Source of the DNA: Stenotrophomonas indicatrix
GTDB lineage: Bacteria > Pseudomonadota > Gammaproteobacteria > Xanthomonadales > Xanthomonadaceae
DNA: 64,000 nucleotides
NCBI RefSeq assembly: GCF_002750975.1
Contig: NZ_PEJS01000001.1
Span: forward strand, 1 to 64,000
Direction: 5' to 3'
This document shows, one piece after another, positions 1-49,921 of the stretch. Numbering within the stretch: position 1 is the first letter of the stretch; each line of letters begins with the position of its first letter. Under the pieces are notes generated by a model. It made no database searches. It saw only the letters and a list, made by a program, of their open reading frames with translations, and was not told the DNA's origin. Made by a program: the position numbers and the translations under genes.

Positions 1-118
1 CTCCCTGGTGAAATTAGCGCTATGGAACCACCCGATCCCATCCCGAACTCGGAAGTGAAACGTAGCTGCGCCGATGGTAGTGTGGCCTAAGCCATGCGAG
101 AGTAGGTCATCGCCAGGG
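1..118 (+). rRNA. rrf: 5S ribosomal RNA, first tandem copy (5' end at window edge)
   Basis: 5S rRNA of the large ribosomal subunit. The conserved core (ggaaccacccgatcccatc, then gaactcggaagtgaaacg) is visible, and the first bases (ccctggtg, 3-10) pair with the last (cgccaggg, 111-118) to form helix I. It is identical to the second copy at 248-365 across the whole stretch. The first one or two bases may lie outside the window. It presumably closes an rRNA operon to the left. Confidence 0.95.
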
Positions 119-34771: not shown

Positions 34772-35938
34772 TCAGGCCTTCGGCGTGAGCTTCAGCAGCC
34801 GTGCCTTGCTGCCGTCTTCCAGCAGCCACAGCGCGCCGTCCGGGCCCTGTTCCACTTCGCGGATGCGCTCGCCCATGTTGAAGCGTTCGGCCTCGCGCGC
34901 GCTGTCGCCGTCGAAGGCAACCCGCACCAGCGAGGTGGACGACAGCCCGCCGATGAAGGCGCTGCCCTTCCACTGCGGGAACAGGCTGCCGCTGTAGAAC
35001 ATCAGGCCGGCCGGGGAAATGACCGGGTTCCAGGTCACCTTCGGTGCGGCGAACTCCGGGCGGGTGTCATGGTCGGGAATCGGACGGCCGTCGTAGTGGT
35101 CGCCGTTGGACACGATCGGATAGCCGTAGTTGGCACCGCGCACGATCAGGTTCAGCTCATCGCCGCCGGCCGGGCCCATCTCCTGCGCCCACAGCTTGCC
35201 GTTGGCATCGAAGGCGATGCCCAGCACGTTGCGGTGGCCGAGCGACCACACCTGCGCGGCCACACCGCCCTGCGAGGCGAACGGATTGTCGGCCGGCAGG
35301 CTGCCGTCGTCGTTGAGGCGGATGATCTTGCCCAGATTGCCGCTCATGTCCTGCGCAGGATCGAACTTCTGCCGTTCGCTCGAACTGATCCACAGCTTGC
35401 CGTCCGGGCCGAAGGCCAGGCGGTGGCCGTAGTGACCTTCGCCACTGACCTTCGGCGTCTGCCGCCAGATCACCTTCAGGTCCTTCAGCTGGCCGCCACC
35501 GTTGGCATCGAGGGCGAGGGTGGCACGGGCCACGGCAGCGCCGCGCGTGTCCAGCGTGCCTTCCTCGGCGTAGCTGACGTACACCACATGGTTGCGGGCG
35601 AAATCCGGATGCAGGATGACGTCACCGAACCCACCCTGGCCGCCGTAGGCGACCTTCGGCACACCGGTGATCTCATGTTTCTGGCCGCTGGCCAGGTCCA
35701 GGTGCTGCAGCTTGCCGCGCTTTTCGGTGACCAGCAGGCTGCCATCGGGCAGGAAGGTCATCGCCCACGGCTGGTCGAACCGGCTGACCTCGGTGGCGGT
35801 GAAGGGACGTTGGTCTGCGCTGGCCGCGGCGGTCGCCGGGGCCTTCTGGCCAGACGCATCAGGGCCGGCCGCGTTGCAGGCGGTGGTGGCGAGGATCGGC
35901 AGCAGGCCGAGGGCGAGCAGCAGGGGCGTGCGGGTCAT
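34772..35938 (-). CDS. PQQ-dependent sugar dehydrogenase, lipoprotein
   Basis: Soluble-type aldose dehydrogenase of the GdhB/YliI fold: six-bladed propeller using pyrroloquinoline quinone. 388 residues. Lipoprotein signal with ILATTAC (Cys about 21). Blades show [59 protein letters not shown] and [12 protein letters not shown]; the last two carry residues of the PQQ pocket. Start at 35938 has GGAGA upstream. PQQ synthesis genes are not in the window. Confidence 0.9.
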
Positions 35939-36110
35939 GGGTATCTCCAGCGGAAGGGGATGCGGATGGCCAGGCTCTCCCTTGTATACCACCGGGGCGG
36001 TGACGGTCGTGGCCCGAAGGTCCTGCTCCCCCCTGTGCGGCATGGCGCGGATCGTCTAGGGTGTTGTCGCCCGGGCAAAGCATTGCCCGCCTGTCTGCCA
36101 AGGACCTGCA

Positions 36111-37100: not shown

Positions 37101-38402
37101 TCAATCAGCAGCGGCATCCTTGCGCGGCAGCTTGTAGATCACCGCGCCAACGGCGAAGGCGACCAGCGCCGCGACGATGTTCTGCCAGCTGGCACTGGCA
37201 AACAGGGCCACGCACAGCAGCAGGGCCAGCACCGGAATCAACGGGCCGCCGGGCAGCTTCAGCGCGCCGGGACGGTCGGCATAGCGCTTGGCCAGCACCA
37301 GCACTGCGGCGGCCGTGCCGATGTAGGCGAACAGGCGTGTGGTCATCGACAGCAGTGCCAGCTGCACGAACGACCCGGACAGCGCCAGGCCGAGGGCGAT
37401 CAGGCCCTGGCAGAAGATCGCCGCGGCCGGGGTACGGAAGCGCGGGTGCACCTGCGCCAGCACCTTCGGGCCGTAGCCATCGCGGGCCAGGGCGAACAGG
37501 AACCGCGGGCCCATCATCATCGTGTTGCTGTTGGTGCCGAGGATGGAGATGGTCGCGCCCACGGTGAGGATCAGCGCCAGCGCCTCGCCGCCGAAGCTGG
37601 AGGCCGCATCGGCCAGTGGCGTGGCCGAGTTGGCCAGGCCGGGCAGCGTGCCCTGCGCCACGATCTGCACCGCCGCGTAGATCACGGTGACGGTGACGAT
37701 CATGGTGATCAGCGCGAACGGGATGTCGCGGCGTGGGTTGCGGTATTCACCGGCTGCGGCCGGAATGTTCTCGAACCCGGCGTAGGCATACAGCAACAGC
37801 AGCGCCGCCTCGCCCATGCGCTGCAGGTCGTGCGGGTCCGGGCGCTGGCCGGAGAAGGCCAGCTGTGGGTCGATGTAGAACGCGCCGATGGCCACGAACA
37901 ACAGCAGCGGCAGCATCTTGCCGATCACCAGCACGATGCCGGTGCGGGCGGCCGAACGCACGCCGATGATGTTCACCCCGGTGAGGAAACCGAGCGAGAC
38001 AACGATGATCGCGATACGGCCCATGCCTGCGCCTGCCCACGGCCAGAACCGCGCCACAGCGTCGGCCAGCGCATTGCTGAGCGCTGCGGCCGAGCTGATG
38101 CGGGTCAGCCAGATCATCCAGCCGATCTCGAAGCCGGCGAAGCGGCCAAAGGCTTGGCGCGCGTACAGGTAGCTGCCACCGGGTTCATCGAAATAGCTGG
38201 CCGCCTGCGCGTAGCACAGCACCAGCAGGGCGACGACGATGCCGGCGGCGACCACGCCCCACAGGCTGAAGGGGCCGAGCAGGGCGACCGTGGCCGCCGG
38301 CAGCAGGTAGATGCCGCTGCCGACCACATCGTTGATGGACAGGCCGACGATCTGCCAGCGGCTGACCGCGCGCTGCAGTTGGGGTTCGTCGGCGGCGCTC
38401 AA
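37101..38402 (-). CDS. APC-family amino acid permease
   Basis: Inner-membrane transporter of 433 residues with 12 helices. N-terminal substrate loop: INDVVGSGIYLLPAA (the GSGIF-type motif of helix 1). Other APC marks: GGSYLYARQAFG and FGGEALALILTVGATISILG. A TTG start at 38402 with AAGGAG seven bases upstream overlaps the stop of the YkuD gene (TTGA), so the pair is translationally coupled. In this neighbourhood the likely cargo is an amino acid or small peptide product of murein, which is inference. Confidence 0.88.
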   Translation of the reverse strand: MSAADEPQLQRAVSRWQIVGLSINDVVGSGIYLLPAATVALLGPFSLWGVVAAGIVVALLVLCYAQAASYFDEPGGSYLYARQAFGRFAGFEIGWMIWLTRISSAAALSNALADAVARFWPWAGAGMGRIAIIVVSLGFLTGVNIIGVRSAARTGIVLVIGKMLPLLLFVAIGAFYIDPQLAFSGQRPDPHDLQRMGEAALLLLYAYAGFENIPAAAGEYRNPRRDIPFALITMIVTVTVIYAAVQIVAQGTLPGLANSATPLADAASSFGGEALALILTVGATISILGTNSNTMMMGPRFLFALARDGYGPKVLAQVHPRFRTPAAAIFCQGLIALGLALSGSFVQLALLSMTTRLFAYIGTAAAVLVLAKRYADRPGALKLPGGPLIPVLALLLCVALFASASWQNIVAALVAFAVGAVIYKLPRKDAAAD

Positions 38403-39163
38403 CGTACGGCTCCTTCAAGCGCGGGCAGCTTCCACTGTGCCTGCAGGCGCTGGTATTCGGCCCTTGGCAACAGGACGAAGCGTGGCGTGTCCTGCGGGCG
38501 CAGCCAGTCCAGCAACGCCTGCATGCGCACCTCTGGCATCGCAGTGCAGCCAGCGGTGGCCTCGCCGGGCTGGCGCCACAGATGGGCGAAGATGCAGCTG
38601 CCCTTGCCGGGTTGGTTGTCCGGGTTGTGCGCCATCACGAAGCCTTCCCGGTAACGCACGTCACCCTGGTTGTGCAGGTCCAGCCGCATCGGTTCGGTGG
38701 AACCGGCGATGGCGGCGCTGCCCACCTTCTTCGCATCGACGATGCGGTTGTAGAACGGCGATGCTGGCACGTCCATGCAGTAGCTGCTCTCGAGCATCGG
38801 CTGATAGGTCATCGCCGTGCCGGGCCGGGTGATGGCATAGCCGAACGCGCTGCCCAGCGCGAACACACCGGCCGGACTGCGGCCATCGCCTTCCTGTTTC
38901 TGCGGACCGTCGTTCTGGGCAGGATGCAGGCCCAGGCCCCAGGCACTGCCGGTGCGACCCAGCGCCACCGGGAAGGCCTGGCCGTGCCTGCGCCAGTGCT
39001 TGCCGTCGCGCACGAAGGCCTGCAGCTGGCCCTGCGTGCTGTCCCAGGTCTCGCTGGTGACCACGATCAGTTGGCGAGCGTTGTCCAGTGGGGCAGCGTG
39101 GAGAGCAGCTGCGGCAACGAGCAGCAGCGCGGCAGATGCAAGGCGGGCCAGCAGCAGGTTCAT
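38399..39163 (-). CDS. YkuD-domain (L,D-transpeptidase-like) secreted protein
   Basis: 254 residues, signal peptide cleaved near LHAAP (about 23). The YkuD active site reads FAHLWRQPGEATAGCTAMPE (about 196-215), with His and the nucleophile Cys (about 210) in the COG3786 style. Such proteins cross-link, or cut at, the meso-diaminopimelate end of murein tetrapeptides. Starts 12 bases after the RpiR-type regulator and overlaps the permease, making a three-gene unit. Confidence 0.88.
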   Translation of the reverse strand: MNLLLARLASAALLLVAAAALHAAPLDNARQLIVVTSETWDSTQGQLQAFVRDGKHWRRHGQAFPVALGRTGSAWGLGLHPAQNDGPQKQEGDGRSPAGVFALGSAFGYAITRPGTAMTYQPMLESSYCMDVPASPFYNRIVDAKKVGSAAIAGSTEPMRLDLHNQGDVRYREGFVMAHNPDNQPGKGSCIFAHLWRQPGEATAGCTAMPEVRMQALLDWLRPQDTPRFVLLPRAEYQRLQAQWKLPALEGAVR

Positions 39164-39175
39164 CGGGCGCTCCGG

Positions 39176-40024
39176 TCAGGAATCCAGCAGGTGGTCGATC
39201 CGTTCCAGGTTCACCGCCAGCTGCTGCTGGCGATCCGGATTGGCGTGGCAGAGCAGCACGAACAGGAAATCGAGCAGGGCATGCATGGCGCTACGGTACA
39301 GCAGCTGCGCCACCTGCGGCGCGCGGTCGTGTGCGCACACCACCAGTGCTGCATCGGCATGCGCACGCAGCGGGTTGGCGGTGTGGCGGGTGATCGACAC
39401 CACTTTGCCGCCCATGTCCTGGAACTGGCGCGACAGCTGCGAAAGCTGTGGCAACTTGCCGAACTCGGAGAACATCAGCAGCACATCGCCCGGGCGCGCG
39501 GCGGACAGGTTGGCCAGCATCAGGATCGGATCGGTATGCGGCACCACCAGCAGGCCGAGCAGCGACAGCCGCATGGCGAATTCGCGCGCGTACAGGCCAT
39601 CGTCACCGAGGCCATGCACAAACAGCTTGGGCGCGCCGTCGAGCAGCTGAACGATGCGCTCGATCTCCTCGCGTGGGTTGGCCTGGCGGGTTTCTTCCTC
39701 GGCCTGGGCCTTGCTGCGGCGCAGGGCGTCGCCCAGGCGCAGGTAGTCATCGCTGATGTCTGGTTCGGCGGGCGCCTGCTGTGGGTCGGCACCGGCGCGG
39801 GCGACGTCCTCGCCGATGGAATATTTCAGGTCAGGGTAGCCCTTGAAGCCGAGCTTCTGGCTGAACTTGACCACGCTGGACTGGCTGATGCCCAGCGCGC
39901 TGGCCAGCTGCTGCGAGGAGTAGTCGCGCAGCAGGTGCGCGTTGTCGAGGATGAAGTCGGCGATGCGGCGTTCGATGGCCGACATCTGCCCGCGCTCGGT
40001 GCGGATTTTCAGCAGGGGCGGCAT
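39176..40024 (-). CDS. MurR/RpiR-family transcriptional regulator
   Basis: 282 residues. N-terminal helix-turn-helix (about 18-60: RRIADFILDN, then SSQQLASALGISQSSVVKFS) and C-terminal SIS sugar-phosphate sensor domain (about 125-255: KLFVHGLGDDGLYAREFAMR, then GDVLLMFSEFG). The family includes MurR, which senses N-acetylmuramate 6-phosphate. First gene of the regulator-YkuD-permease unit. It probably controls this unit and the nearby peptidase genes. ATG at 40024; the upstream frame passes into repeat-like sequence. Confidence 0.93.
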   Translation of the reverse strand: MPPLLKIRTERGQMSAIERRIADFILDNAHLLRDYSSQQLASALGISQSSVVKFSQKLGFKGYPDLKYSIGEDVARAGADPQQAPAEPDISDDYLRLGDALRRSKAQAEEETRQANPREEIERIVQLLDGAPKLFVHGLGDDGLYAREFAMRLSLLGLLVVPHTDPILMLANLSAARPGDVLLMFSEFGKLPQLSQLSRQFQDMGGKVVSITRHTANPLRAHADAALVVCAHDRAPQVAQLLYRSAMHALLDFLFVLLCHANPDRQQQLAVNLERIDHLLDS

Positions 40025-40160
40025 GCGGGGCGTCCGATGGTCGTGCGCTGGAGCATAGAGGACCGCGTTGCGGTTGGCGGCGTAGAGCAGAGTATGTGGT
40101 GGCTCGGGCGGGTGCCAGCCGCGAAGGGGGTACGGAGTGGGGAAAAAGCAGGAGCAAGGG

Positions 40161-40184
40161 CATCCACGCATGGCGTGGATCTAC
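40161..40184. repeat. REP, ATCCACGC subtype
   Basis: catccacgcatggcgtggat followed by ctac; same dyad as at 8534, 33944 and 50250. Confidence 0.85.
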
Positions 40185-40360
40185 CCGGAGCTGCAGTTGA
40201 GTCCGCCTTCAAGCGAGCCGAGCACCGCAGGTCCGGCGAGGGCGAAGAGGCGCGGGTGTCTGAGCGCAGCGAGTTCCGCGCCGTCCCTCGGCGGACCGAG
40301 GAGCGCAGGGCACCGGCGTGCGCAGCACGTCGGCTCGCGGCCGGCGGAGCGTTTCTTTTG

Positions 40361-40392
40361 GTTACTTTTCTTTTCGCGAAAAGAAAAGTAAC
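40361..40392. repeat. Perfect 32-bp palindrome
   Basis: gttacttttcttttcg directly followed by its exact reverse complement (centre at cg|cg, 40376/40377). A/T-rich arms in a GC-rich setting. Lies at the end of the repeat-like stretch, 48 bases past the epimerase stop, and could serve as its transcription end. Confidence 0.85.
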
Positions 40393-40439
40393 GCCCGACC
40401 CAACGTCAGTTGTACGCCAAGCCAGCCGCAAGGCAGAAA

Positions 40440-41534
40440 TCAACCCAGCATCTCCAACCCCCGCACTTCGGTGATGCCCAACCCCGGCACATCGCTGATG
40501 CTGATCTCCGACTCGTTGAAGCGCACCCCGCCGCTGACCGGATCGAACTGCCCCAGCGAGGGGCCATCCAGGTCGACCTTGGTGATCACATCGCTCTTGG
40601 CTACCGCCAGGTGCACCGCTGCGGCCACGCTGATGCTGGATTCGATCATGCAGCCGATCATGCACGGCACGCCGTAGATGCCGGCGATGTCGGCAATGCG
40701 GATTGCGTTGGACAGGCCACCGGTTTTCATCAGCTTGATGTTGATGATGTCGGCGGCACGCTGCTGGATCAGGTCCATCACCTGGCTCGGGCTGAACACG
40801 CTCTCGTCGGCCATCACCGGGGTGTTGACCCGATCGGTCACGTACTTCAGGCCGCTGATGTCGGCGGCCTTGACCGGCTGCTCCAGCAGTTCCAGCACCA
40901 CACCTGCATCTTCCAGCGTGCGCATCGCATGCACCGCCTGCTTGGCGGTCCAGCCCTGGTTGGCATCCAGGCGCAGCAGCGCGCGGCCTTCGACGGCGGC
41001 ATGGATCGCCTTGACCCGCTCGATGTCCACGCCGATGTCCTTGCCGACCTTGATCTTCAGCGACTCGAAGCCGCGTTCGATCGCCGACAGCGAATCGGCC
41101 ACCATCTTGTCGATGTAGTCCACGCTGATGGTGATGTCGGTGGTGATCACCGGGTCGCCACCACCGAGCATCTGGTACAGCGGCGCGCCATGCAGCTGCG
41201 CCCACAGGTCGTACAGGGCGATCTCCACCGCCGCCTTGGCGCTGGTGTTGCGCTCCATCGCGGTCTGCACCAGCGTGCACAGGCGGTTGAGGTTGACCAC
41301 CTCCTGGCCGATCAGGCGCGGGGCAATGAAGTGCCGGATCGCTTCGATGATCGAGCCGTGGGTGTCACCGGTGATCACCGCGGTGGCAGGCGCCTCGCCG
41401 TAGCCGGTGTGGCCGCTGTCGGTGCGGATCAGCACCACCACGTCCTCCACGGTTTCCACCGTGCGCAGCGCGGTCTTGAAAGGGGTCTTCAGCGGCACGC
41501 GCAGCATGCCCAGTTCGATGGCGGTGATCTTCAT
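40440..41534 (-). CDS. Dipeptide (L-Ala-D/L-Glu type) epimerase
   Basis: Enolase-superfamily enzyme of 364 residues that inverts the alpha carbon of the second residue in murein dipeptides. N-terminal cap (about 1-125) and barrel. Catalytic and metal residues seen: KIKVGKD (KxK, about 162), LRLDANQGW (metal Asp, about 192), ELLEQPVKAAD (metal Glu, about 220), MADESVFSP (metal Asp, about 245) and INIKLMKTGG (catalytic Lys, about 268). This matches YcjG/YkfB. Its ATG directly abuts the stop of the NlpC/P60 gene, with no gap. Confidence 0.92.
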   Translation of the reverse strand: MKITAIELGMLRVPLKTPFKTALRTVETVEDVVVLIRTDSGHTGYGEAPATAVITGDTHGSIIEAIRHFIAPRLIGQEVVNLNRLCTLVQTAMERNTSAKAAVEIALYDLWAQLHGAPLYQMLGGGDPVITTDITISVDYIDKMVADSLSAIERGFESLKIKVGKDIGVDIERVKAIHAAVEGRALLRLDANQGWTAKQAVHAMRTLEDAGVVLELLEQPVKAADISGLKYVTDRVNTPVMADESVFSPSQVMDLIQQRAADIINIKLMKTGGLSNAIRIADIAGIYGVPCMIGCMIESSISVAAAVHLAVAKSDVITKVDLDGPSLGQFDPVSGGVRFNESEISISDVPGLGITEVRGLEMLG

Positions 41535-42980
41535 TCAGGGGTTCTTGGCACGCAGGCGTTGGATGTTGGTGATGCGATCGATGTAGCGGACGCTGTCGCT
41601 GGCCATCATCGGCTCCAGCGGGGTGACCGATACGCCATTGAGGTGGGCCTGCACACGCTTGCCGTCGGCGCCGAACCAGCTGCCGCCCGCGGTATCGTGG
41701 ATCACCCAGGTGCGGCCATCGACGTGGCCGATGGCCATCATCACGTGGCCGGGGATGTAGACCAGGTCACCCACCTGCAGATCGGTGACAGCGCGGTCGC
41801 GCACGGCCTTGCCGTCCTTGGCGGTGAACGGCAAGCGGTCCAGCGCGGGACTGACCGCCTGTGCGCTGGTATTGCGTGGCAGCAGCACGCCGAAGCTGCG
41901 GTAGATCTCCGATACGAATCCACTGCAGTCGCGGGTGTCGTAGTCGTGGCCCCAGCCGTAGCGCTCGCCGAGGAACTTGAACGCTTGCTGCAGCAGCTGG
42001 CGCGGAGTCAGCGGCAGGTAGTCGGCGGCGGTGTCCTGCGAGCGCGGCAGCAGCGCCGGCACCAGCTTCAGGCGGCCATCGGCCTCGCGCACCGGCAGCT
42101 GCACCACCCAAGAGGCGTGCGCCTGTTGCCCGTTCACCGGCTCAGCGGCGGGCCAGTCGGCCAACACCGGCAGGCGCATGCCCATGTCCAGCTGCAGGCG
42201 CGATACGCGCGGTTCTTCGGGTGTGTAGGCGGTGTGCGCTGTGGCGGCGGTGACGATGCGGTACGGGCCCTTCGCGCCGTAGCCGAGCACCGTGGCCTTG
42301 TCACCGCTGGCCACCGCGTCGGCTTCGATCCATGCGCTGTAGCGCTCGCTGTGCACGAACAGCCAGCGGCCGTCGGTGCTGCGGTGGACGACGGCAACCT
42401 TGTCGCCGGGGAACAGTGCCGACTCCTGGAAGCGGTCGATGTCGGTATCGCCGACGGTGCTGAAGACACGCTGGCGGGTGGGGAAGGTGCGCAGCGCGGC
42501 GCGCTTCACCACCAGGGCGTAGTCCGGCGACACCTGCGACGGAACTGCATCGAGACCGAGGTTGGCTTCGATCGCGCTGCGCACGTCCGGTGCGATGGCG
42601 CGGCCCTTGTCGTCATACAGCGCCCGCGTGGGCCAGCTCGACAGCGTGGTGATGCTGTCACGCACCTGTGCCGCGCTGAGCTGCGCAGGCAGGGTGGCGA
42701 TGTCCTGGATGTGCTTGTCCTGCGCGCGCATCCGTGCGTTCTGCGCCTCGATCTGCGCGCGGTCCAGGATAGGTGCGTCGGCATTGTCCAGCCGTGCCGC
42801 CCAGTAGTCCGCGGTGAGGTAGGCCTCGTGCAGGCCGATCACGTAAGGCAGCGGGGCGCCGGGGTCGGGTACAGGCGTGGCCGCCTGGGTGAATGCGGGT
42901 GCGCCCAGCAGGCCCAGGGCCAGTGCCAAGGTCAACCGGTGCGGCCAGTGCCGACGCGGTTCGCGGGAAGCCAGGATCAT
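41535..42980 (-). CDS. NlpC/P60 peptidase with SH3-like domains, secreted
   Basis: Predicted gamma-D-glutamyl-L-diamino-acid peptidase of 481 residues. Signal peptide (basic n-region REPRRHWPHR, core, cleaved near FTQAA, about 34). Bacterial SH3-like segments (about 150-320) precede the NlpC/P60 domain: GWGHDYDTRDCSGFVSEIYR with the nucleophile Cys (about 358), then GHVMMAIGHVDGRTWVIHDT with the His. This is the YkfC layout, but YkfC is cytosolic. AGGAGG stands 11 bases before the ATG at 42980; a GTG nine bases earlier is too close to it. Co-transcribed with the epimerase. Confidence 0.9.
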   Translation of the reverse strand: MILASREPRRHWPHRLTLALALGLLGAPAFTQAATPVPDPGAPLPYVIGLHEAYLTADYWAARLDNADAPILDRAQIEAQNARMRAQDKHIQDIATLPAQLSAAQVRDSITTLSSWPTRALYDDKGRAIAPDVRSAIEANLGLDAVPSQVSPDYALVVKRAALRTFPTRQRVFSTVGDTDIDRFQESALFPGDKVAVVHRSTDGRWLFVHSERYSAWIEADAVASGDKATVLGYGAKGPYRIVTAATAHTAYTPEEPRVSRLQLDMGMRLPVLADWPAAEPVNGQQAHASWVVQLPVREADGRLKLVPALLPRSQDTAADYLPLTPRQLLQQAFKFLGERYGWGHDYDTRDCSGFVSEIYRSFGVLLPRNTSAQAVSPALDRLPFTAKDGKAVRDRAVTDLQVGDLVYIPGHVMMAIGHVDGRTWVIHDTAGGSWFGADGKRVQAHLNGVSVTPLEPMMASDSVRYIDRITNIQRLRAKNP

Positions 42981-43009
42981 GCGCTGCACACCCTCCTCGA
43001 ATGCCTGTT

Positions 43010-43080
43010 GGAATATTTATTCCTTTCGGCCCCGAAAGCAAGAATAAATTATTGACCGGTCTTCCGGCCCGTGTTACACA
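43010..43080. promoter_or_regulatory. Divergent promoters with operator-like dyads
   Basis: Three adjacent dyads: GGAATATTTATTCC (43010-43023), TTTCGGCCCCGAAA (43024-43037) and GAATAAATTATTG (43042-43054). The first overlaps a minus-strand -10 (TAAATA, with TTGCTT 16 bases upstream) for the NlpC gene. The third overlaps a plus-strand -35 (TTGACC 43052-43057, then TACACA 43075-43080, 17 apart) for the transglutaminase gene. The A/T-rich dyads resemble published MurR/RpiR sites of the GAAAT(A/T)-N-ATTTC kind. Confidence 0.5.
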
Positions 43081-43112
43081 GCCGTTACCACCCGCGCTTG
43101 GGAAGTGTCGCT

Positions 43113-44585
43113 GTGGATCCTGCCGTTCGCAAACCGTCTCTGCCTGCCGCTGCCGGCCTGTGTGCCGCGCTGCTGCTGTGGGCGTCGGCGGCACCGGCCG
43201 CGGATCCGCGCAGCGCCACTGATCGCGAACGGGAAACGCAGCTGATCGATCTGGTCGACAGCGGTCGTTTCAGCGATGCCGATGCGTTGCTGGCGACCGC
43301 AGGCGATGCTGCCGAAAGCGCGTTCCAACGCGAGCGCATGCGCCGCATCAAACTGGATTTCTCCCTTGACCAAGCCGCAGCCAAAGCAGCGGTACGCCGC
43401 TGGATTCCCGACCTGACCGACGAGGAATTCGCGCGCTGGGACCAGCTTGGCCTGATCGAACATCTCGACATCGATGGCACGCGCTGGTACTTCAAGCGCG
43501 CACCATCGAACCTGTTCCTGCTCAGCGATGAAGCGCGTGCACGCCGCCGCGCGGATGCGCCGATGCCGGCGCCGGGCCCCAACGAGGTGCTCAACGCGCA
43601 TCACGCGCGCGTGGTTGCCGCCGCCGAACAGAGCGGCATGGCATCCGTGCTGGCGCAGCGCATCGAATTCACCCAATCGTTGACGGTCAAGGCGGATGCC
43701 GTACCGGCCGGCGAAACCGTACGTGCCTGGATTCCGTACCCGCGCGAGATTCCCGGCCAGCAGGAGCGCGTGCAGTGGATCGGCAGTGCACCAGGCAAGG
43801 CTCGAGTCGCCCCGGCCAGCACCCAGCAGCGCACCGCCTACCTGGAAGCCAAGGCGGTGGCCGGGCAGCCGACGCACTTTGAAATCCGCTATGCGGTGAC
43901 GATCTTCGCGCGCCACACGGCAATCGATGCGACGAAGGTGCAGGCCACGCCGAATGATCCAGCATTGAAGCCCTATCTGGCCGAGCAGCTGCCGCACGTG
44001 CGCTTCACGCCGGCGCTGAAGCTGTTCTCCGCCCAGGTGCTGCAGGGCGAGACACGCCCGTATGAAGTGGTACGCAAGCTGTTCGCCGCGGTCGACCGCA
44101 TTCCATGGGCCGGTGCGCGCGAGTACTCGACCCTCAGCAACATCAGCGACTACGCGTTGCGCGCCGGTCATGCCGATTGCGGGCAGCAGACACTGCTGTT
44201 GATCGCCCTGCTGCGCATGAACGGCATTCCCGCGCGCTGGCAGTCGGGCATGGTGTTCTCCGACGATGGCAGCGGCTACAACAACCTGCACGACTGGGGC
44301 CAGGCCTACCTGGCGCCCTATGGCTGGCTGCCGATGGATGTGACCACCGGCGCGTTGGCCAGCGACACGCCCGCGCTGCGTGACTTCTACCTCGGTGGCC
44401 TCGATGGCTACCGCATCGCCTTCAACGACGATTTCGGCCAGGCGTTCGTGCCGGCCAAACAGCACTACCGCTCGGAAACGGTCGACTCGCAGCGCGGCGA
44501 GGCCGAGTGGTCAGGCGGCAACCTGTACTTCGACCAATGGAGCTACGACTTCCAGTGGCGGGTACTGCCAGCCGGGCAACGCTAG
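43113..44585 (+). CDS. Secreted transglutaminase-like protein
   Basis: 490 residues, signal peptide cleaved near APAAD (about 33). A helical region (about 40-190) precedes a strand-rich part and a transglutaminase-like domain (about 310-440). The papain-like triad is visible: Cys in HADCGQQTLLL (about 353), His in NNLHDWGQAYL (about 395) and Asp in GWLPMDVTTG (about 410). Bacterial members of this family are mostly peptidases or amidases. GTG at 43113 with GGGAAG upstream is preferred to a GTG at 43071, which lies inside the likely promoter. First gene of the four-gene plus-strand series. Confidence 0.85.
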   Translation: MDPAVRKPSLPAAAGLCAALLLWASAAPAADPRSATDRERETQLIDLVDSGRFSDADALLATAGDAAESAFQRERMRRIKLDFSLDQAAAKAAVRRWIPDLTDEEFARWDQLGLIEHLDIDGTRWYFKRAPSNLFLLSDEARARRRADAPMPAPGPNEVLNAHHARVVAAAEQSGMASVLAQRIEFTQSLTVKADAVPAGETVRAWIPYPREIPGQQERVQWIGSAPGKARVAPASTQQRTAYLEAKAVAGQPTHFEIRYAVTIFARHTAIDATKVQATPNDPALKPYLAEQLPHVRFTPALKLFSAQVLQGETRPYEVVRKLFAAVDRIPWAGAREYSTLSNISDYALRAGHADCGQQTLLLIALLRMNGIPARWQSGMVFSDDGSGYNNLHDWGQAYLAPYGWLPMDVTTGALASDTPALRDFYLGGLDGYRIAFNDDFGQAFVPAKQHYRSETVDSQRGEAEWSGGNLYFDQWSYDFQWRVLPAGQR

Positions 44586-44635
44586 CGCGACACACCACCC
44601 CACCACCATTCAATTCTTGCAGGAGAGAGCAGGGG

Positions 44636-47635
44636 ATGAAGGCTTACAACATCAAGCGGGCGGCCTTGTGCGTCGCCCTCGGCGCGTGTCTGGCCACGCT
44701 GGCGCCCAGCGCATTCGCGCAGGACGGTGCCGTGGTCGGCCGCCTGACCAGCAATGCCGGGCAGGTGCCTGCCGGTGCCACCGTTACCGTGCGCAACCCC
44801 GCCACCGGCTTTGTGCGTTCGGTGCAGGCCGACAGCAAGGGCAGCTACCGCATTCCGTTGTTGCCGGTCGGCACCTATGACATGGAGGTCAGCCTGCCGG
44901 GCGGTGCTGCCAGCCGCGTCGGCCAGGTCACCGTTAGCCTGGGCAGTGCAACCACGGTGAATGTGCCGCTGGGCGCGGTCAGCACGTTGGGCACCGTGGA
45001 AGTGCGCGCGCCGCAGGTGGTGTCGATGGTGGACGTGAAGTCCACCGAGTCGGCCACGAACATCACCCGCGAGGAACTGTCGCGGCTGCCGGTGGACCGT
45101 GACATCACCGCGGTGGCGCTGCTGGCGCCCGGCGCGGTGAAGGGCAAGGGCTCGTTGGGTGGACAGGGCATCTCCTTCGGTGGTTCGTCGGTGGCGGAGA
45201 ACACCGTCTACATCAACGGTCTGAACGTCACCGATTTCTACAACCGGGTCGGGTTCTCGTCGGTACCGTTCTCGTTCTACCAGGAGTTCCAGGTGAAGAC
45301 CGGCGGCTACTCGGTGGAGTTCGGTCGCAGCACCGGCGGCGTCATCAACGCCGTCACCCGCTCGGGCAGCAACGACTTCAAGGCCGGTGCCGAACTGGTT
45401 TTCGAGCCACGCGCCTGGCAGTCGCAGGCGCGCGACCGCTATGACGGCGACGGCAGCCGTTACATCACCGCCAGCCGTGACGACTACTCGCGCAGTGCGC
45501 TGAATGTGTTCGCCTCCGGTGCGCTGGTGCAGGACCGGCTGTTCTTCTTCGGCATGTACGAAGCGCGCGACTACACGCCCAATTCGACCAATGATGCCGG
45601 TACCGTGTTCAACCGGGGTACTGCCGATGATCCGTTCTGGGGCGGCAAGCTGGATTGGCAGATCACCGACAACCAGATGCTGTCGCTGTTCGGATTCTCC
45701 GACAAGAGCGATACCGTCACCGACGTCTATCGCTACGACCATGACACCGGCACTGTCGCAGCCGAGCGCAACAACCAGATCTACAACACGGTGGGCGGCA
45801 GGAACTGGTCGGGCACCTACAGCTGGCAGGTCAACAACGATCTGACCATGAAGCTGATGTATGGTGAGAACAAGCGCAACCGCACGCAGAGCTCGTTGAT
45901 GGACGAGAACTGCAACCGCGTGTTCGACAACCGCACTGCCAGCCAGGGCGTGCCTTCCAACCTGCAGGGTGACCGCAGCTGCACCAGCAGCTCGCAGCTG
46001 GAGTCGGCGCTGGATACGCGCAAGGCCGCGCGCGCCGACTTTGAATGGTCCATCGGCAACCATCTGCTGCGCTTTGGCCTGGACCGCGAAGAAAACACCT
46101 CCGACTACGAGCGCGCCTATCCCGGTCCCGGTGGCCTGCGCTACGACATCTACTACCGCACGCCGGGCAGTTCACTCAACGGCGGCACCGTGCCCGCCAG
46201 CGGCCTGGTCGCGCGTACCCGCCGCTACGAAGTGGCCGGTTCGTTCGAGACCATCAACTCAGCCTACTACCTGGAAGACAACTGGCAGGTCACCCCGAAC
46301 TTCCTGCTCAACATCGGCGCGCGCGTGGAAGGGTTCGACAACAAGGGCGGCGACGGCGACAGCTACATCAAGATAGACAACATGATCGCGCCACGCCTGG
46401 GCTTCGCCTGGGACGTGCGTGGTGATGGCACCACCAAGGTGTTCGGCAACCTGGGTCGTTACTACCTGCCGGTGGCCAACGTCATCAACATCAAGCAGGC
46501 CGGTGGCTTCCTCGATGAGCGCACCTGGTATGAGTTCCTGGGCTACACCGGCGCCGCCAACAACGTGCCGAACCTGGGCGGCCAGATCGGTCCGGTCGAC
46601 AATTCGCAGGGCGATGGCAGCGTGCCGGACCTGCGCGCCGAGGTGAACCGGGACATGGATCCGGTCTATCAGGATGAGGCGATTCTAGGCTTCCAGCACA
46701 TGCTGAGTGAATCGTGGTCGGTTGCCGCCAGCGTCACCTACCGGCGCCTGAGCAACGCCATCGATGACATGAACATCACCGCCACCGGCCAGTGTGGTGC
46801 GATCGACGGCGTCTGGATCATGGGAAACCCCGGGCGCACGAACACAGTCTGGGGGGACACCAATTGCGATGGCAGCAACGATGGCTGGATCGACATCGAC
46901 ACCTCCAAGGAAGGCTGGGCGCTGTATGACGACGACGGCAATTACGTGGGCCAACGCGGCTGGGTGAAGCCCAAGCGTGACTACAAGGCGCTGGAACTGC
47001 AGGTCGATCGCGCGTGGGATGGCAAGTGGGGCTTCAATGCGTCCTATACGCTGGCCTATGGCCGCGGCAACGCCGAAGGCCCGGTCAACTCCGATACCGA
47101 CTTCGCCGACGCTGGCCGCACCGAGAACTTCGACAACCCATGGGTGAACTACCGCGGTTATGGCTATCTGGCCAATGACCGCCGCCACCAGTTCAAGTTC
47201 CGCGGCAGCTACGCGCTGACCGAGAACCTCAGCGTGGCCGCCACCCTGGGCGTGCAGTCGGGCAGCCCGATCACCCGCTTCGGTGCGGGTAATCCCTTCG
47301 ACGACACCGACTTCCACAGCTATTACGTGTGTGTGTCCAACTGCCAGTCGACGGTCCCCTCCGAACGCGTGTTCGTGCATTCGCCGCGCGGTGGCGATGG
47401 CCGTACCCCGTGGACCTACGATCTGGACGTCAGCGTTTCCTACAAGGTGCCGATCCCCACTGACCTGCGCCTGAAGCTGGCGGTGTACAACGTGCTCAAC
47501 CAGCAGCGCGTGGTCACCGTGGACCAGGACTACGAGCCGCAGGACAGCATCGGCACGCCGAACCCGATGTATGGTTATGGCACGGGATTCCAGTCGCCGC
47601 GCTATGCGCAGTTGACGGTGACCTGGAATTACTGA
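44636..47635 (+). CDS. TonB-dependent receptor, Oar-like
   Basis: Outer-membrane receptor of 999 residues for active import. Signal peptide cleaved near SAFAQ (about 23); a carboxypeptidase-regulatory-like domain (about 25-110: GAVVGRLTSNAGQVPAGATV); plug domain (about 125-260, with ITREELSRLPVDRDI and FGRSTGGVINAVTRSG); 22-stranded barrel ending in aromatic WNY. No TonB-box-proximal sigma-signalling domain. The Oar-type build is frequent in peptide or protein uptake. AGGAG lies ahead of the ATG. In this setting, murein peptides are a reasonable guess for the cargo. Confidence 0.93.
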   Translation: MKAYNIKRAALCVALGACLATLAPSAFAQDGAVVGRLTSNAGQVPAGATVTVRNPATGFVRSVQADSKGSYRIPLLPVGTYDMEVSLPGGAASRVGQVTVSLGSATTVNVPLGAVSTLGTVEVRAPQVVSMVDVKSTESATNITREELSRLPVDRDITAVALLAPGAVKGKGSLGGQGISFGGSSVAENTVYINGLNVTDFYNRVGFSSVPFSFYQEFQVKTGGYSVEFGRSTGGVINAVTRSGSNDFKAGAELVFEPRAWQSQARDRYDGDGSRYITASRDDYSRSALNVFASGALVQDRLFFFGMYEARDYTPNSTNDAGTVFNRGTADDPFWGGKLDWQITDNQMLSLFGFSDKSDTVTDVYRYDHDTGTVAAERNNQIYNTVGGRNWSGTYSWQVNNDLTMKLMYGENKRNRTQSSLMDENCNRVFDNRTASQGVPSNLQGDRSCTSSSQLESALDTRKAARADFEWSIGNHLLRFGLDREENTSDYERAYPGPGGLRYDIYYRTPGSSLNGGTVPASGLVARTRRYEVAGSFETINSAYYLEDNWQVTPNFLLNIGARVEGFDNKGGDGDSYIKIDNMIAPRLGFAWDVRGDGTTKVFGNLGRYYLPVANVINIKQAGGFLDERTWYEFLGYTGAANNVPNLGGQIGPVDNSQGDGSVPDLRAEVNRDMDPVYQDEAILGFQHMLSESWSVAASVTYRRLSNAIDDMNITATGQCGAIDGVWIMGNPGRTNTVWGDTNCDGSNDGWIDIDTSKEGWALYDDDGNYVGQRGWVKPKRDYKALELQVDRAWDGKWGFNASYTLAYGRGNAEGPVNSDTDFADAGRTENFDNPWVNYRGYGYLANDRRHQFKFRGSYALTENLSVAATLGVQSGSPITRFGAGNPFDDTDFHSYYVCVSNCQSTVPSERVFVHSPRGGDGRTPWTYDLDVSVSYKVPIPTDLRLKLAVYNVLNQQRVVTVDQDYEPQDSIGTPNPMYGYGTGFQSPRYAQLTVTWNY

Positions 47636-47718
47636 GGATGCATCTGCGCGCCGCCCTGCGGGGCGGCGTGGTTTGATGAACGCCGTACCTGCCTGCGCGC
47701 TGCCTGACGGAGACTGAC

Positions 47719-49275
47719 TTGCATCGTCTGTTGCTACTGGCTGCAGCACTGGCCAGCCCCACCGCCCCAGCAGGGGCGGTGGACACCGCACGCCTGGACG
47801 CCGACATCGCCTTCGTGGGCCAGCACGAGCACCTGCCGGGGCTGGCGATGGCGGTGGTCGAGGATGGCCAGGTGGTCTATCGCCACGCCGAAGGCGCGCG
47901 CGGTGACGGCGGCCGCATCGATGAAGACACGCTGTTCAAGATCGCCTCCAACAGCAAGGCGATGACCGCCGCGCTGCTGGCCACGCTGGTGGAGCAGGGC
48001 AAGCTGCGCTGGGACGACCCGGTACGCCGTCATCTGCCGGCGTTCCGCATGCATGACCCGTGGGTGGGCGAACACCTGCAGGTGCGCGATCTGCTGATTC
48101 ACAACAGCGGCCTCGGCCTGGGTGCCGGTGACCTGATGCTGTGGCCTGAGCCCAATGCCTTCACCCGCAGCGATGTCATCGCCGGGCTGGCACACCTGAA
48201 GCCGGTCACCAGTTTCCGCAGCGGCTACGCCTACGACAACCTGATGTACGTCGTTGCCAGTGAGGTGGCTGCGGCCGCCGGTGGCAAGCCCTATGACCAG
48301 CTGATGCGCGAGCGGGTGTTTGAACCGCTGGGGATGACCCGTTGCCAGGTGGGCGCATGGTCGGTGAAGCAGGTCGGCAATGTCGCCCAACCGCATGTGC
48401 GTCGCGATGGCCGCAATGTGGTGGCCGGTGCCGATGGAACGCTCAGCCCCGATCTGACGTCGATGGCGGCCGGTGGCATCCGCTGTTCGCTGCGCGACAT
48501 GACGCGCTGGATGCAGGTGCTGCTGGACCCGGCGCTGGCACCGGCGTGGTTGGGCGCCGAGCAACGCCGCATGCTGTGGACGCTGCACATGCCGATGCCA
48601 TTGGGCGAACGCCAACGCAAGTGGGACAACGCCCACTTCTATGGCTATGGGCTGGGCTGGCGGGTGTCGGACATGGACGGGCACTGGAAGGTCGCGCACA
48701 CCGGTACGCTGTCGGGCATGTATTCCTCGCTGGCGCTGCTGCCGGATCGCAAGGTCGGCGTGGTGATGCTGATCAACGGCGAGGCCGAAGAAGCCCGCAC
48801 CGCGTTGATGCAGTCGACGCTGAAACAGTTCACCGCGCCGGATGACGCGCAACCTGTGGGGTACTACCTGGCCGAGCTGAAGGCCGATCAGGCCGCGCGT
48901 GCCGCCACGGGAAGTCGTGCACCCTCTACCCGGGCTGCCCGACCGGCTGCAGCAACCGATCTGGCGCATTGGCAGGGGCGTTACCGCGATCCCTGGCTGG
49001 GCCCCGCCTCGCTATGCCCCACCAGCAATGGCCTGCGCTTCAGCGTGGACAAATCGCCCGCGCTGCAGGCAACGGTGCAGCAGCTGCAGGGTCGCTGGCT
49101 GTTGCAGTGGGATACGCTGGAACCCGCGGCACAGGCGTGGCTGAATCCCGATGCAGGCACGCCGACGCTGGAACTGCGCGCCATCGATCCGGAGATCGAC
49201 TTCAGCTATGACTTCCAGGACCTGCATTTCACTCGTACTGGCGATTGCCCTGGCAGCGGCGGCCCACGCCGCTGA
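47719..49275 (+). CDS. Serine beta-lactamase-like hydrolase (class C fold)
   Basis: 518 residues with a signal peptide (about 1-21). Active-site motifs of the penicillin-binding/AmpC fold: SNSK (S-x-x-K, about 76-79), YAYDN (Y-x-N, about 172-176) and KVAHTGTLSG (the HTG in place of KTG, about 322). An extra C-terminal beta domain (about 400-518, GRYRDPWLGPASL) is DUF3471-like. Such proteins are often D-amino-acid peptidases or esterases, not resistance enzymes. TTG start with GGAG seven bases upstream. Follows the receptor by 83 bases. Confidence 0.88.
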   Translation: MHRLLLLAAALASPTAPAGAVDTARLDADIAFVGQHEHLPGLAMAVVEDGQVVYRHAEGARGDGGRIDEDTLFKIASNSKAMTAALLATLVEQGKLRWDDPVRRHLPAFRMHDPWVGEHLQVRDLLIHNSGLGLGAGDLMLWPEPNAFTRSDVIAGLAHLKPVTSFRSGYAYDNLMYVVASEVAAAAGGKPYDQLMRERVFEPLGMTRCQVGAWSVKQVGNVAQPHVRRDGRNVVAGADGTLSPDLTSMAAGGIRCSLRDMTRWMQVLLDPALAPAWLGAEQRRMLWTLHMPMPLGERQRKWDNAHFYGYGLGWRVSDMDGHWKVAHTGTLSGMYSSLALLPDRKVGVVMLINGEAEEARTALMQSTLKQFTAPDDAQPVGYYLAELKADQAARAATGSRAPSTRAARPAAATDLAHWQGRYRDPWLGPASLCPTSNGLRFSVDKSPALQATVQQLQGRWLLQWDTLEPAAQAWLNPDAGTPTLELRAIDPEIDFSYDFQDLHFTRTGDCPGSGGPRR

Positions 49276-49921
49276 GCCACCACGCATCTCGCCCGCCACC
49301 GACGTCACTGCGGCGGGACTGGTGGAGATCCGCACGCTGTCACCGCGCATCGAGATGGACATCCGCTACGCCGGTGCCAACAACTTCACCGCTGCGCGCG
49401 TGCCCGGCTATGAGGCGCCCGCGTGTTATCTGCTGGCGCCGGTGGCAAAGGCGTTGGCTGCTGTGGAAGCCGACCTGCGCGCGCAGGGTTTTGGCTTGCG
49501 TCTCTACGATTGCTATCGCCCGGTGCGCGCGGTGCAGGCGTTCATGGCCTGGGTAAGTGATCCGCAGGAACAGTCGCGCAAGGCGCTGCAGTATCCGGAT
49601 CTGGACAAGCCGCAGCTGCTGAGCGACGGCTACATCGCCGAGCGCTCCGGCCACAGCCGTGGTGCCACCGTGGATCTGGGCCTGCTGGATTGCCGCAGCG
49701 GGCGCTGTACGCCGATGGACATGGGCACCGATTTCGATTTCTTCGGCCCGCGCGCGCATACGCAGACGCCCGGCCTGAATGACGCACAGAAGGCCAACCG
49801 CCAGCAGCTGGTACAGGCGATGGCACGGCGTGGTTTCGCCAACTATGCGCAGGAGTGGTGGCACTACACGCTGCAGCCCGAGCCGGACTCCGGTACCGCC
49901 TACGACGTGCCAGTGCGGTAA
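49208..49921 (+). CDS. VanX-type D-Ala-D-Ala dipeptidase, secreted
   Basis: Zinc metallopeptidase of family M15D, 237 residues. Signal peptide (about 1-22). Motifs: GLRLYDCYRPVRAVQ (about 78-92), the metal site SGHSRGATVDLG (His and Asp, about 135-146) and EWWHY (catalytic Glu and last His, about 207-211). It splits D-Ala-D-Ala, here probably as a periplasmic nutritional or salvage enzyme, as in DdpX, rather than in vancomycin resistance. Overlaps the preceding gene by 68 bases in another frame, so it is co-translated. Confidence 0.92.
   Translation: MTSRTCISLVLAIALAAAAHAAEPPRISPATDVTAAGLVEIRTLSPRIEMDIRYAGANNFTAARVPGYEAPACYLLAPVAKALAAVEADLRAQGFGLRLYDCYRPVRAVQAFMAWVSDPQEQSRKALQYPDLDKPQLLSDGYIAERSGHSRGATVDLGLLDCRSGRCTPMDMGTDFDFFGPRAHTQTPGLNDAQKANRQQLVQAMARRGFANYAQEWWHYTLQPEPDSGTAYDVPVR

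Follow-up and report, generated by a model that had tools for sequence, protein, structure and literature searches.

The DNA analysed here, referred to as the window, is a stretch of 64,000 nucleotides from Stenotrophomonas indicatrix, and its positions 37101..49921 hold a candidate locus for the use of murein stem peptides. Nine gene families had been assigned to this interval in a first-pass annotation, and all nine were found there using Pfam and NCBIfam scans. The reverse strand carries an APC-family amino-acid permease (37101..38402; Pfam AA_permease_2, 2.4e-47), an exported YkuD-domain protein proposed to be a periplasmic L,D-carboxypeptidase (38399..39163; PF03734, 1e-6, a weak match yet above the Pfam cut-off), a MurR-like regulator of the RpiR family with an altered SIS site (39176..40024; HTH_6, 1.1e-20; SIS, 1.3e-12), a cytosolic L-Ala-D/L-Glu-type dipeptide epimerase of the MR_MLE type (40440..41534; PDB 1jpm/1tkk, 3.7e-106) and an exported NlpC/P60 endopeptidase with an SH3_6 domain (41535..42980; PF00877, 3.4e-11; PF12913, 2.1e-15), the last being proposed to cut between gamma-D-Glu and diaminopimelic acid (DAP). 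The forward strand carries an exported transglutaminase-like cysteine peptidase with a Transglut_core domain (43113..44585; PF01841, 1.1e-15), a TonB-dependent receptor with CarboxypepD_reg and Plug domains (44636..47635; Plug, 1.2e-9; OMP_b-brl_4, 1.8e-26), an exported S12 serine hydrolase proposed as a DD-carboxypeptidase or D-aminopeptidase (47719..49275; PF00144, 7e-61) and an exported D-Ala-D-Ala dipeptidase of the VanX/DdpX type (49208..49921; PF01427, 5.2e-39; PDB 1r44, 5.2e-41).

Start positions were refined from the sequence for the RpiR (40024), NlpC/P60 (42980), transglutaminase-like (43113), receptor (44636) and VanX (49208) genes. Signal peptides were recognised by eye in the NlpC/P60, YkuD, transglutaminase-like, receptor, S12 and VanX proteins; the epimerase has none.

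Neighbourhood and active sites

The epimerase was used as the query to find related loci. At E values up to 0.001, a limit that takes in weak kin, it matched 31 of 41 relatives. Stricter limits gave 90 of 149 genomes of the family (1e-60), 45 of 151 genomes of the order (1e-70) and four of 369 genomes of the class (1e-70), namely the genome of the window and three of its own family. One hundred neighbourhoods of up to 20 kb each were assembled around epimerase relatives; hits that were nearly identical or lay on short contigs, and certain others, were excluded. They comprised 22 loci from the same genus, 55 from other genera of the same family (f1), 16 from family f12, six from f7 and one from f3. 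The loci are related, so the counts below are not independent, and absences may be overcounted because the loci were picked by the epimerase and some stretches end early. Two irregularities were seen: the epimerase match of L083 (genome G119) falls in two adjoining pieces, possibly through a frameshift or assembly error, and a contig titled Bacillus subtilis SK7B5 (L153) holds an epimerase 91% identical to that of the window, probably from Stenotrophomonas contamination.

The NlpC/P60 gene was present in 98 of the 100 loci (22/22 in the genus, 53/55 in the other f1 genera and 16/16 in f12). In the same order, the frequencies were 22/22, 44/55 and 13/16 for RpiR; 21/22, 45/55 and 16/16 for YkuD; 20/22, 40/55 and 13/16 for the transglutaminase-like gene; 22/22, 41/55 and 12/16 for the receptor; 22/22, 42/55 and 12/16 for S12; and 20/22, 33/55 and 16/16 for VanX. 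The whole set, with either of two permeases described below, was found in 53 loci (18 in the genus, 24 in other f1 genera and 11 in f12), and NlpC/P60, transglutaminase-like and receptor genes had the same order and divergence in 70 of the 71 loci carrying all three. The outside neighbour at 34772-36043 was kept in 31 loci (21/22, 10/55 and 0/16). The neighbourhood comparison had been set beforehand as the test able to refute the grouping; the units stay together across two families, and the nine-gene layout is not chance.

The genes had been described as three units. Their association stood, but the original layout was probably two divergent operons, since the epimerase and RpiR matches lie no more than 60 bp apart in 47 of the 79 RpiR-bearing relatives. 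This gap is usually wide in the genus of the window (60 bp or less in 3/22 only). The spacer varies in length among relatives, and in the window it holds a perfect palindrome, TTACTTTTCTTTTCGCGAAAAGAAAAGTAA, at 40362-40391, the sole copy within the window.

Catalytic residues were then read from the alignments. The nearest solved relative of the epimerase is the B. subtilis L-Ala-D/L-Glu epimerase YkfB (1jpm/1tkk, 3.7e-106), and R24, K160, K162, K267, D321 and D323 were kept in 100-101 of 101 sequences; the roles of R24, the catalytic lysines and the D321/D323 pair are presumably those in the YkfB structure. The NlpC/P60 protein is nearest to 3m1u, a putative gamma-D-glutamyl-L-diamino acid endopeptidase (1.9e-25), with R350, D351, C352, H412 and H428 in 99/99 sequences and S353 in 94. 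The VanX active site aligns with PDB 1r44, and what we take to be the zinc ligands, the catalytic Glu and the equivalent of Arg71 are present; R104 and H149 were found in 68/68, D156 in 67/68, and E216 and H219 in 65/68. Conservation was likewise complete for YkuD H194 and C206 (84/84), for C356, H393 and D409 of the transglutaminase-like protein (74/74) and for S77, K80, Y172, N174 and H327-T-G of the S12 protein (77/77). A profile search of solved structures gave no useful match for YkuD and a weak best match, 3isr (0.0022), for the transglutaminase-like protein. Among the best 120 of 3534 homologs of the latter, the named ones were mainly Stenotrophomonas, with single titles such as Bacillus subtilis, Flavobacterium and Pseudomonas. 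The S12 protein has the beta-lactamase fold of its first-pass label but is S12 peptidase-like rather than a recognised beta-lactamase; its DUF3471 match is weak and under the cut-off. Assignment as a class C beta-lactamase was rejected (85.1 versus the NCBIfam cut-off of 415 bits), the motif being HTG where we take KTG to be expected.

In the third family, f7, the cluster is differently composed. The epimerase and NlpC/P60 genes are kept (two of the six stretches end early) and are joined by an Amidase_2/PG_binding amidase (6/6), an S66 LD-carboxypeptidase (6/6), an alanine racemase (4/6), a different TonB-dependent receptor with CarboxypepD_reg (5/6) and a sodium symporter (5/6). One f7 cluster was annotated further (L227): RpiR is followed by an S12 protein with DUF3471 and an M14 carboxypeptidase, and beyond RpiR there is an Asp/Glu-racemase match below the Pfam cut-off. 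Amidase_2 relatives lay inside the fetched stretch in 12 of the 93 f1 and f12 loci; the window's own genome has two Amidase_2 genes, one lipoprotein-like (lipobox by eye) and one AmpD-sized without a signal peptide. These f7 partners, enzymes expected for dismantling murein stem peptides, are the strongest point for murein. The YkfB-like epimerase, the catalytic residues and the f7 enzymes support the murein-peptide role earlier predicted for the set, and the murein stem peptide is well supported by sequence as the substrate that would fit the locus best.

Divergent promoter and regulator

The intergenic region between the NlpC/P60 and transglutaminase-like genes contains two candidate operators, O1 (GGAATATTTATTCC, 43010..43023) and O2 (AGAATAAATTATTGAC, 43041..43056), O1 usually lying 31 bp ahead of O2. 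The second overlaps the -35 element of a proposed rightward promoter for the transglutaminase-receptor operon, TTGACC-N17-TACACA (43052..43080, forward strand), which is conserved in the consensus of 78 loci. A simple sigma-70 scan did not list this promoter; its single match (one found versus 0.3 expected) runs leftward at 43077-43048 with the -10 inside O2, and the placement of the leftward promoter is uncertain.

Operators were tested in 450 bp beside NlpC/P60, where the O1-O2 pair was found in 53 of 78 loci with RpiR and in none of 20 without it. The test was widened to whole loci because a DUF819 gene intervenes in many f12 loci. The O2 pattern AGMATAAWTTATTSW, sought at any place in the stretch with one mismatch allowed, matched 77 of 79 loci with RpiR (a count partly fitted, the O2 letters having been loosened after the f12 and f7 sites were seen), one of 15 loci lacking RpiR and five of the six in f7. 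Seven controls, six shuffled patterns and the reversed one, matched 0/100 each, and neither these controls nor the result for loci lacking RpiR were fitted. The RpiR-bearing loci without O2 were L075 and L088. The sole locus with O2 but no RpiR, L070, belongs to a genome (G096) whose cluster appears to be split over L067 and L070, each with an epimerase copy (80% and 75% identical to that of the window), and the RpiR gene is in L067. Searches of eight genomes with loci lacking RpiR (G155, G103, G058, G608, G099, G026, G617 and G574) found no HTH_6 gene in four and an HTH_6 gene of another make in the remaining four (L218, L220-L222). Sites resembling AGAATAAWTTATTCT occur two or three times in five of the six f7 loci; RpiR lies 9-11 kb from the epimerase in G040, G030 and G631, and the RpiR matches of the other three f7 genomes are on other contigs.

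At exactly -31 bp from O2, the mean O1 match over 78 loci was 9.76 positions out of 12, compared with 3.01 (standard deviation 1.01) in the background. The exact sequence GGAATANNTATTCC occurs once in the 4.56-Mb genome, at this locus; only the exact site is informative, since the count at up to one mismatch (three places) is near that of a control pattern (two). O1 fits GGAA-N6-TTCC, the Caulobacter inositol-gene motif under the RpiR-family protein IolR, for which the relevant passages of PMC2597717 do not show direct binding. The E. coli murR-murQ stretch has nothing within fewer than three mismatches of an O2-like operator core. Because the presence of RpiR tracks the O2 operator in the divergent promoter, the regulator and both operons form one probable regulon. 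RpiR likely represses both operons.

The window RpiR protein is the only HTH_6 gene product found in its genome (E up to 1e-5). The RpiR/MurR label given to it in the first-pass annotation is sound as to lineage, the protein having HTH_6 and SIS domains, a similar recognition helix and 31% identity to E. coli MurR over 266 columns (four gap positions), but not as to the presumed phosphosugar site. Serines of the SIS domain bind phosphate, and between MurR and the window protein the motifs change from GLGGSAL to GLGDDGL, from SYSG to SEFG and from SLTDSPLR to RHTANPLR. Among 80 regulators (79 loci plus the window), three positions did not vary: the second acidic residue of the GLGDDGL motif, the Glu of SEFG and the Arg of RHTANPLR. 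The His of RHTANPLR was found in 79, the exception fitting L075 (Arg-Asn). E. coli HexR (YebK), AlsR and six of ten class-level control RpiR proteins keep the Ser or related hydroxyl motifs. Controls outside f1 without serine motifs were L205, L209, L211 and L212; divergence of the SIS motifs is therefore not peculiar to the locus, but the set of acids with Arg-His occurred in 0/10 controls; L207 and L208 gave no alignable match and were dropped.

No MurQ was found above the cut-off in the genome of the window (best 28.6 versus 302 bits). Since the presumed phosphate-site serines are replaced by acids, Arg-His is added and MurQ is missing above the cut-off, the ligand of the regulator is probably not a phosphosugar. 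A peptide-like ligand is suggested because the acidic residues and Arg-His would suit an amino group and carboxylates. Sensing of a murein sugar by RpiR was set aside on the same grounds, the altered SIS site and the lack of MurQ above the cut-off.

Exchange of receptor, permease and carboxypeptidase

The receptor sequences fall into two deep clades, one with 35 rows and one with 41. At least 14 changes between the clades were counted on the tree of the neighbouring genes, a quick tree with long branches flagged and without a shuffled-label control. Swaps occurred within the genus (L009-L030), where flanking genes in the closest strains are about 75-94% identical. When the window is aligned with L012 and L014, DNA identity of about 90% gives way to 59-71% over approximately 44500-47500 and recovers to some 82% from 48000; unswapped pairs, too, have a low value in the 47500 bin. 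What changes is the receptor, as a cassette; the enzymes are retained.

The permease slot was occupied by APC only in 35 loci, by an SDF-type Na+/dicarboxylate symporter only in 46, by both in none and by neither in 19. The permease switched at least eight times on the tree of the epimerase, NlpC/P60 and RpiR, likewise counted without a shuffled-label control. A DUF819 membrane protein was seen in 24 of the 100 loci, 21 of these with SDF. This protein, which may be a further transporter of the pathway, is encoded next to NlpC/P60 in many loci of f12 and in some of f1 (L089-L101; for example, L098:9014-10162).

YkuD was absent from all six f7 loci, in which S66 was always present, and no S66 match was obtained in a search of the genome of the window. 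On these grounds YkuD seems to replace the LD-carboxypeptidase and to carry out that step. A precedent is given in passages of PMC9239154, in which the YkuD protein ElsL of A. baumannii is an LD-carboxypeptidase where LdcA is not apparent. The YkuD proteins of L009 and L016 are 82% identical to each other and 63-68% identical to those of the window, L010-L015 and L017, which is another local replacement.

Proposed function and competing explanations

Read together, the sequence comparisons make it fairly probable that the locus is an inducible murein stem-peptide utilization system. The receptor would bring peptidoglycan-derived peptides into the periplasm, where the stem peptides may be freed or opened by a lipoprotein amidase encoded away from the locus and perhaps also by the transglutaminase-like enzyme. 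From family knowledge and the conserved active sites, S12 would remove D-Ala, YkuD would remove D-Ala from tetrapeptides and VanX would remove D-Ala-D-Ala, and NlpC/P60 would cut gamma-D-Glu from DAP to yield L-Ala-D-Glu. Either the APC or the SDF permease may import this dipeptide or the freed amino acids, and the cytosolic epimerase, by strong homology, would produce L-Ala-L-Glu for ordinary dipeptidases. RpiR, whose pairing with the operators of the divergent promoter is supported by comparative sequence, would bind O1 and O2 and repress both operons until released by a product of the breakdown. That product would more probably be a peptide or an amino acid than a phosphosugar. Linkage points to the receptor as the transporter of murein peptides, and the purpose would be to feed on murein of foreign origin, not to recycle.

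Several points weigh against this account. The epimerase scores under the NCBIfam equivalog cut-off (250.9 versus 500 bits), as does VanX (179.1 versus 320 bits for VanX and 114.8 versus 176 for PRK10178), and no close characterised relative of the transglutaminase-like and S12 enzymes was found among solved structures. The receptor type is absent from the fetched stretch in 25 of the 100 loci, five of which are f7 loci with another receptor. The f7 regulators retain the SIS serines; the change of ligand is thus not common to all relatives, and the altered SIS site belongs to the f1/f12 branch.

Finally, the genes could serve mainly for self-recycling instead, stem peptides of the cell's own wall being recaptured by a route replacing that of cytosolic LdcA, with the receptor recovering leakage only. 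The periplasmic enzymes would then act at the site of turnover, and the lack of an S66 match and the retention of both Amidase_2 genes would agree with this; an outer-membrane receptor that is dedicated and has been exchanged repeatedly, together with a local regulator, is more in keeping with a variable substrate from outside, and we consider self-recycling unlikely. General peptide scavenging, in which the enzymes would handle ordinary or D-amino-acid peptides and murein would be incidental, draws on the breadth of the transglutaminase-like, S12 and APC/SDF families and on the epimerase score. It appears very improbable given the conserved R24 and D321/D323 pair of the epimerase, the VanX active site and the murein-specific f7 partners. 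A third possibility is that the receptor has no part in the pathway and shares the promoter by chance, its substrate being, for example, a siderophore or another nutrient. This would suit its absences and its replacement by distant alleles while the neighbours stay, but is scarcely credible for a gene that keeps the same slot over two families, has a different CarboxypepD_reg counterpart in f7 and lies downstream of O2 in the presumed operon.

A more specific form of the stem-peptide utilization system is offered tentatively, as possible rather than probable: a repressor of MurR lineage may have switched from a phosphosugar to a zwitterionic murein peptide product (e.g. L-Ala-D-Glu) and may control what amounts, for peptides, to a complete equivalent of a polysaccharide utilization locus, with a stem-peptide-importing receptor exchanged as a cassette.

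Known systems resemble the locus in part. The ykfABCD genes of B. subtilis include the S66 protein YkfA and the oligopeptide ABC component YkfD. The likeness lies in a YkfB-type epimerase with a matching active site adjoining an NlpC/P60 endopeptidase; here, in contrast, the enzymes are exported, YkuD stands in place of S66, and an APC or SDF secondary permease stands in place of ABC parts, no oligopeptide ABC transporter component being found among the nine genes. VanX, the transglutaminase-like and S12 enzymes, the TonB-dependent receptor and RpiR are also additional. The murein peptide salvage of E. coli (MpaA, YcjG, MppA-Opp, LdcA and PepD) has the same chemistry, from tripeptide to L-Ala-L-Glu. 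Its steps are cytosolic, after import by AmpG or Opp, whereas most of the predicted peptidases here carry signal peptides. Some of the E. coli steps are covered in parts of PMC6448482. The MurR-MurQP regulon of E. coli (L192) shares the HTH_6 and SIS type of regulator and differs in the MurQ, SIS-serine and operator features given above. ElsL is similar as a YkuD protein in a species without apparent LdcA, but is cytosolic according to passages of PMC9239154, whereas that of the window has a signal peptide. TonB-dependent receptors are also part of the MurNAc uptake system of Tannerella forsythia and of the carbohydrate utilization loci of Xanthomonas. Those loci likewise group a receptor with catabolic enzymes and a local regulator, but import sugars, whereas this one would import murein peptides. 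A Xanthomonas 'dipeptide epimerase' is merely tabulated in the part of PMC6090828 concerned, and no description of the whole locus was found in the open literature among the matches listed (titles, abstract beginnings and some passages).

If the stem-peptide account is true, active import across the outer membrane would give Gram-negative bacteria of the soil, and opportunists, a route to use the peptides in the walls of other bacteria as food. The locus offers single-gene tests of murein-peptide uptake, and its SIS regulator is a candidate for one that has lost phosphosugar sensing. It also hints at roles for YkuD, S12 and transglutaminase-like enzymes that are exported and usually left unnamed. 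Exchange of the receptor at a fixed site suggests pressure on it, with phages, toxins or differing types of murein among the conceivable sources.

Apart from the locus, tandem 5S ribosomal RNA genes with equal scores were found at the start of the window (4-118 and 251-365).

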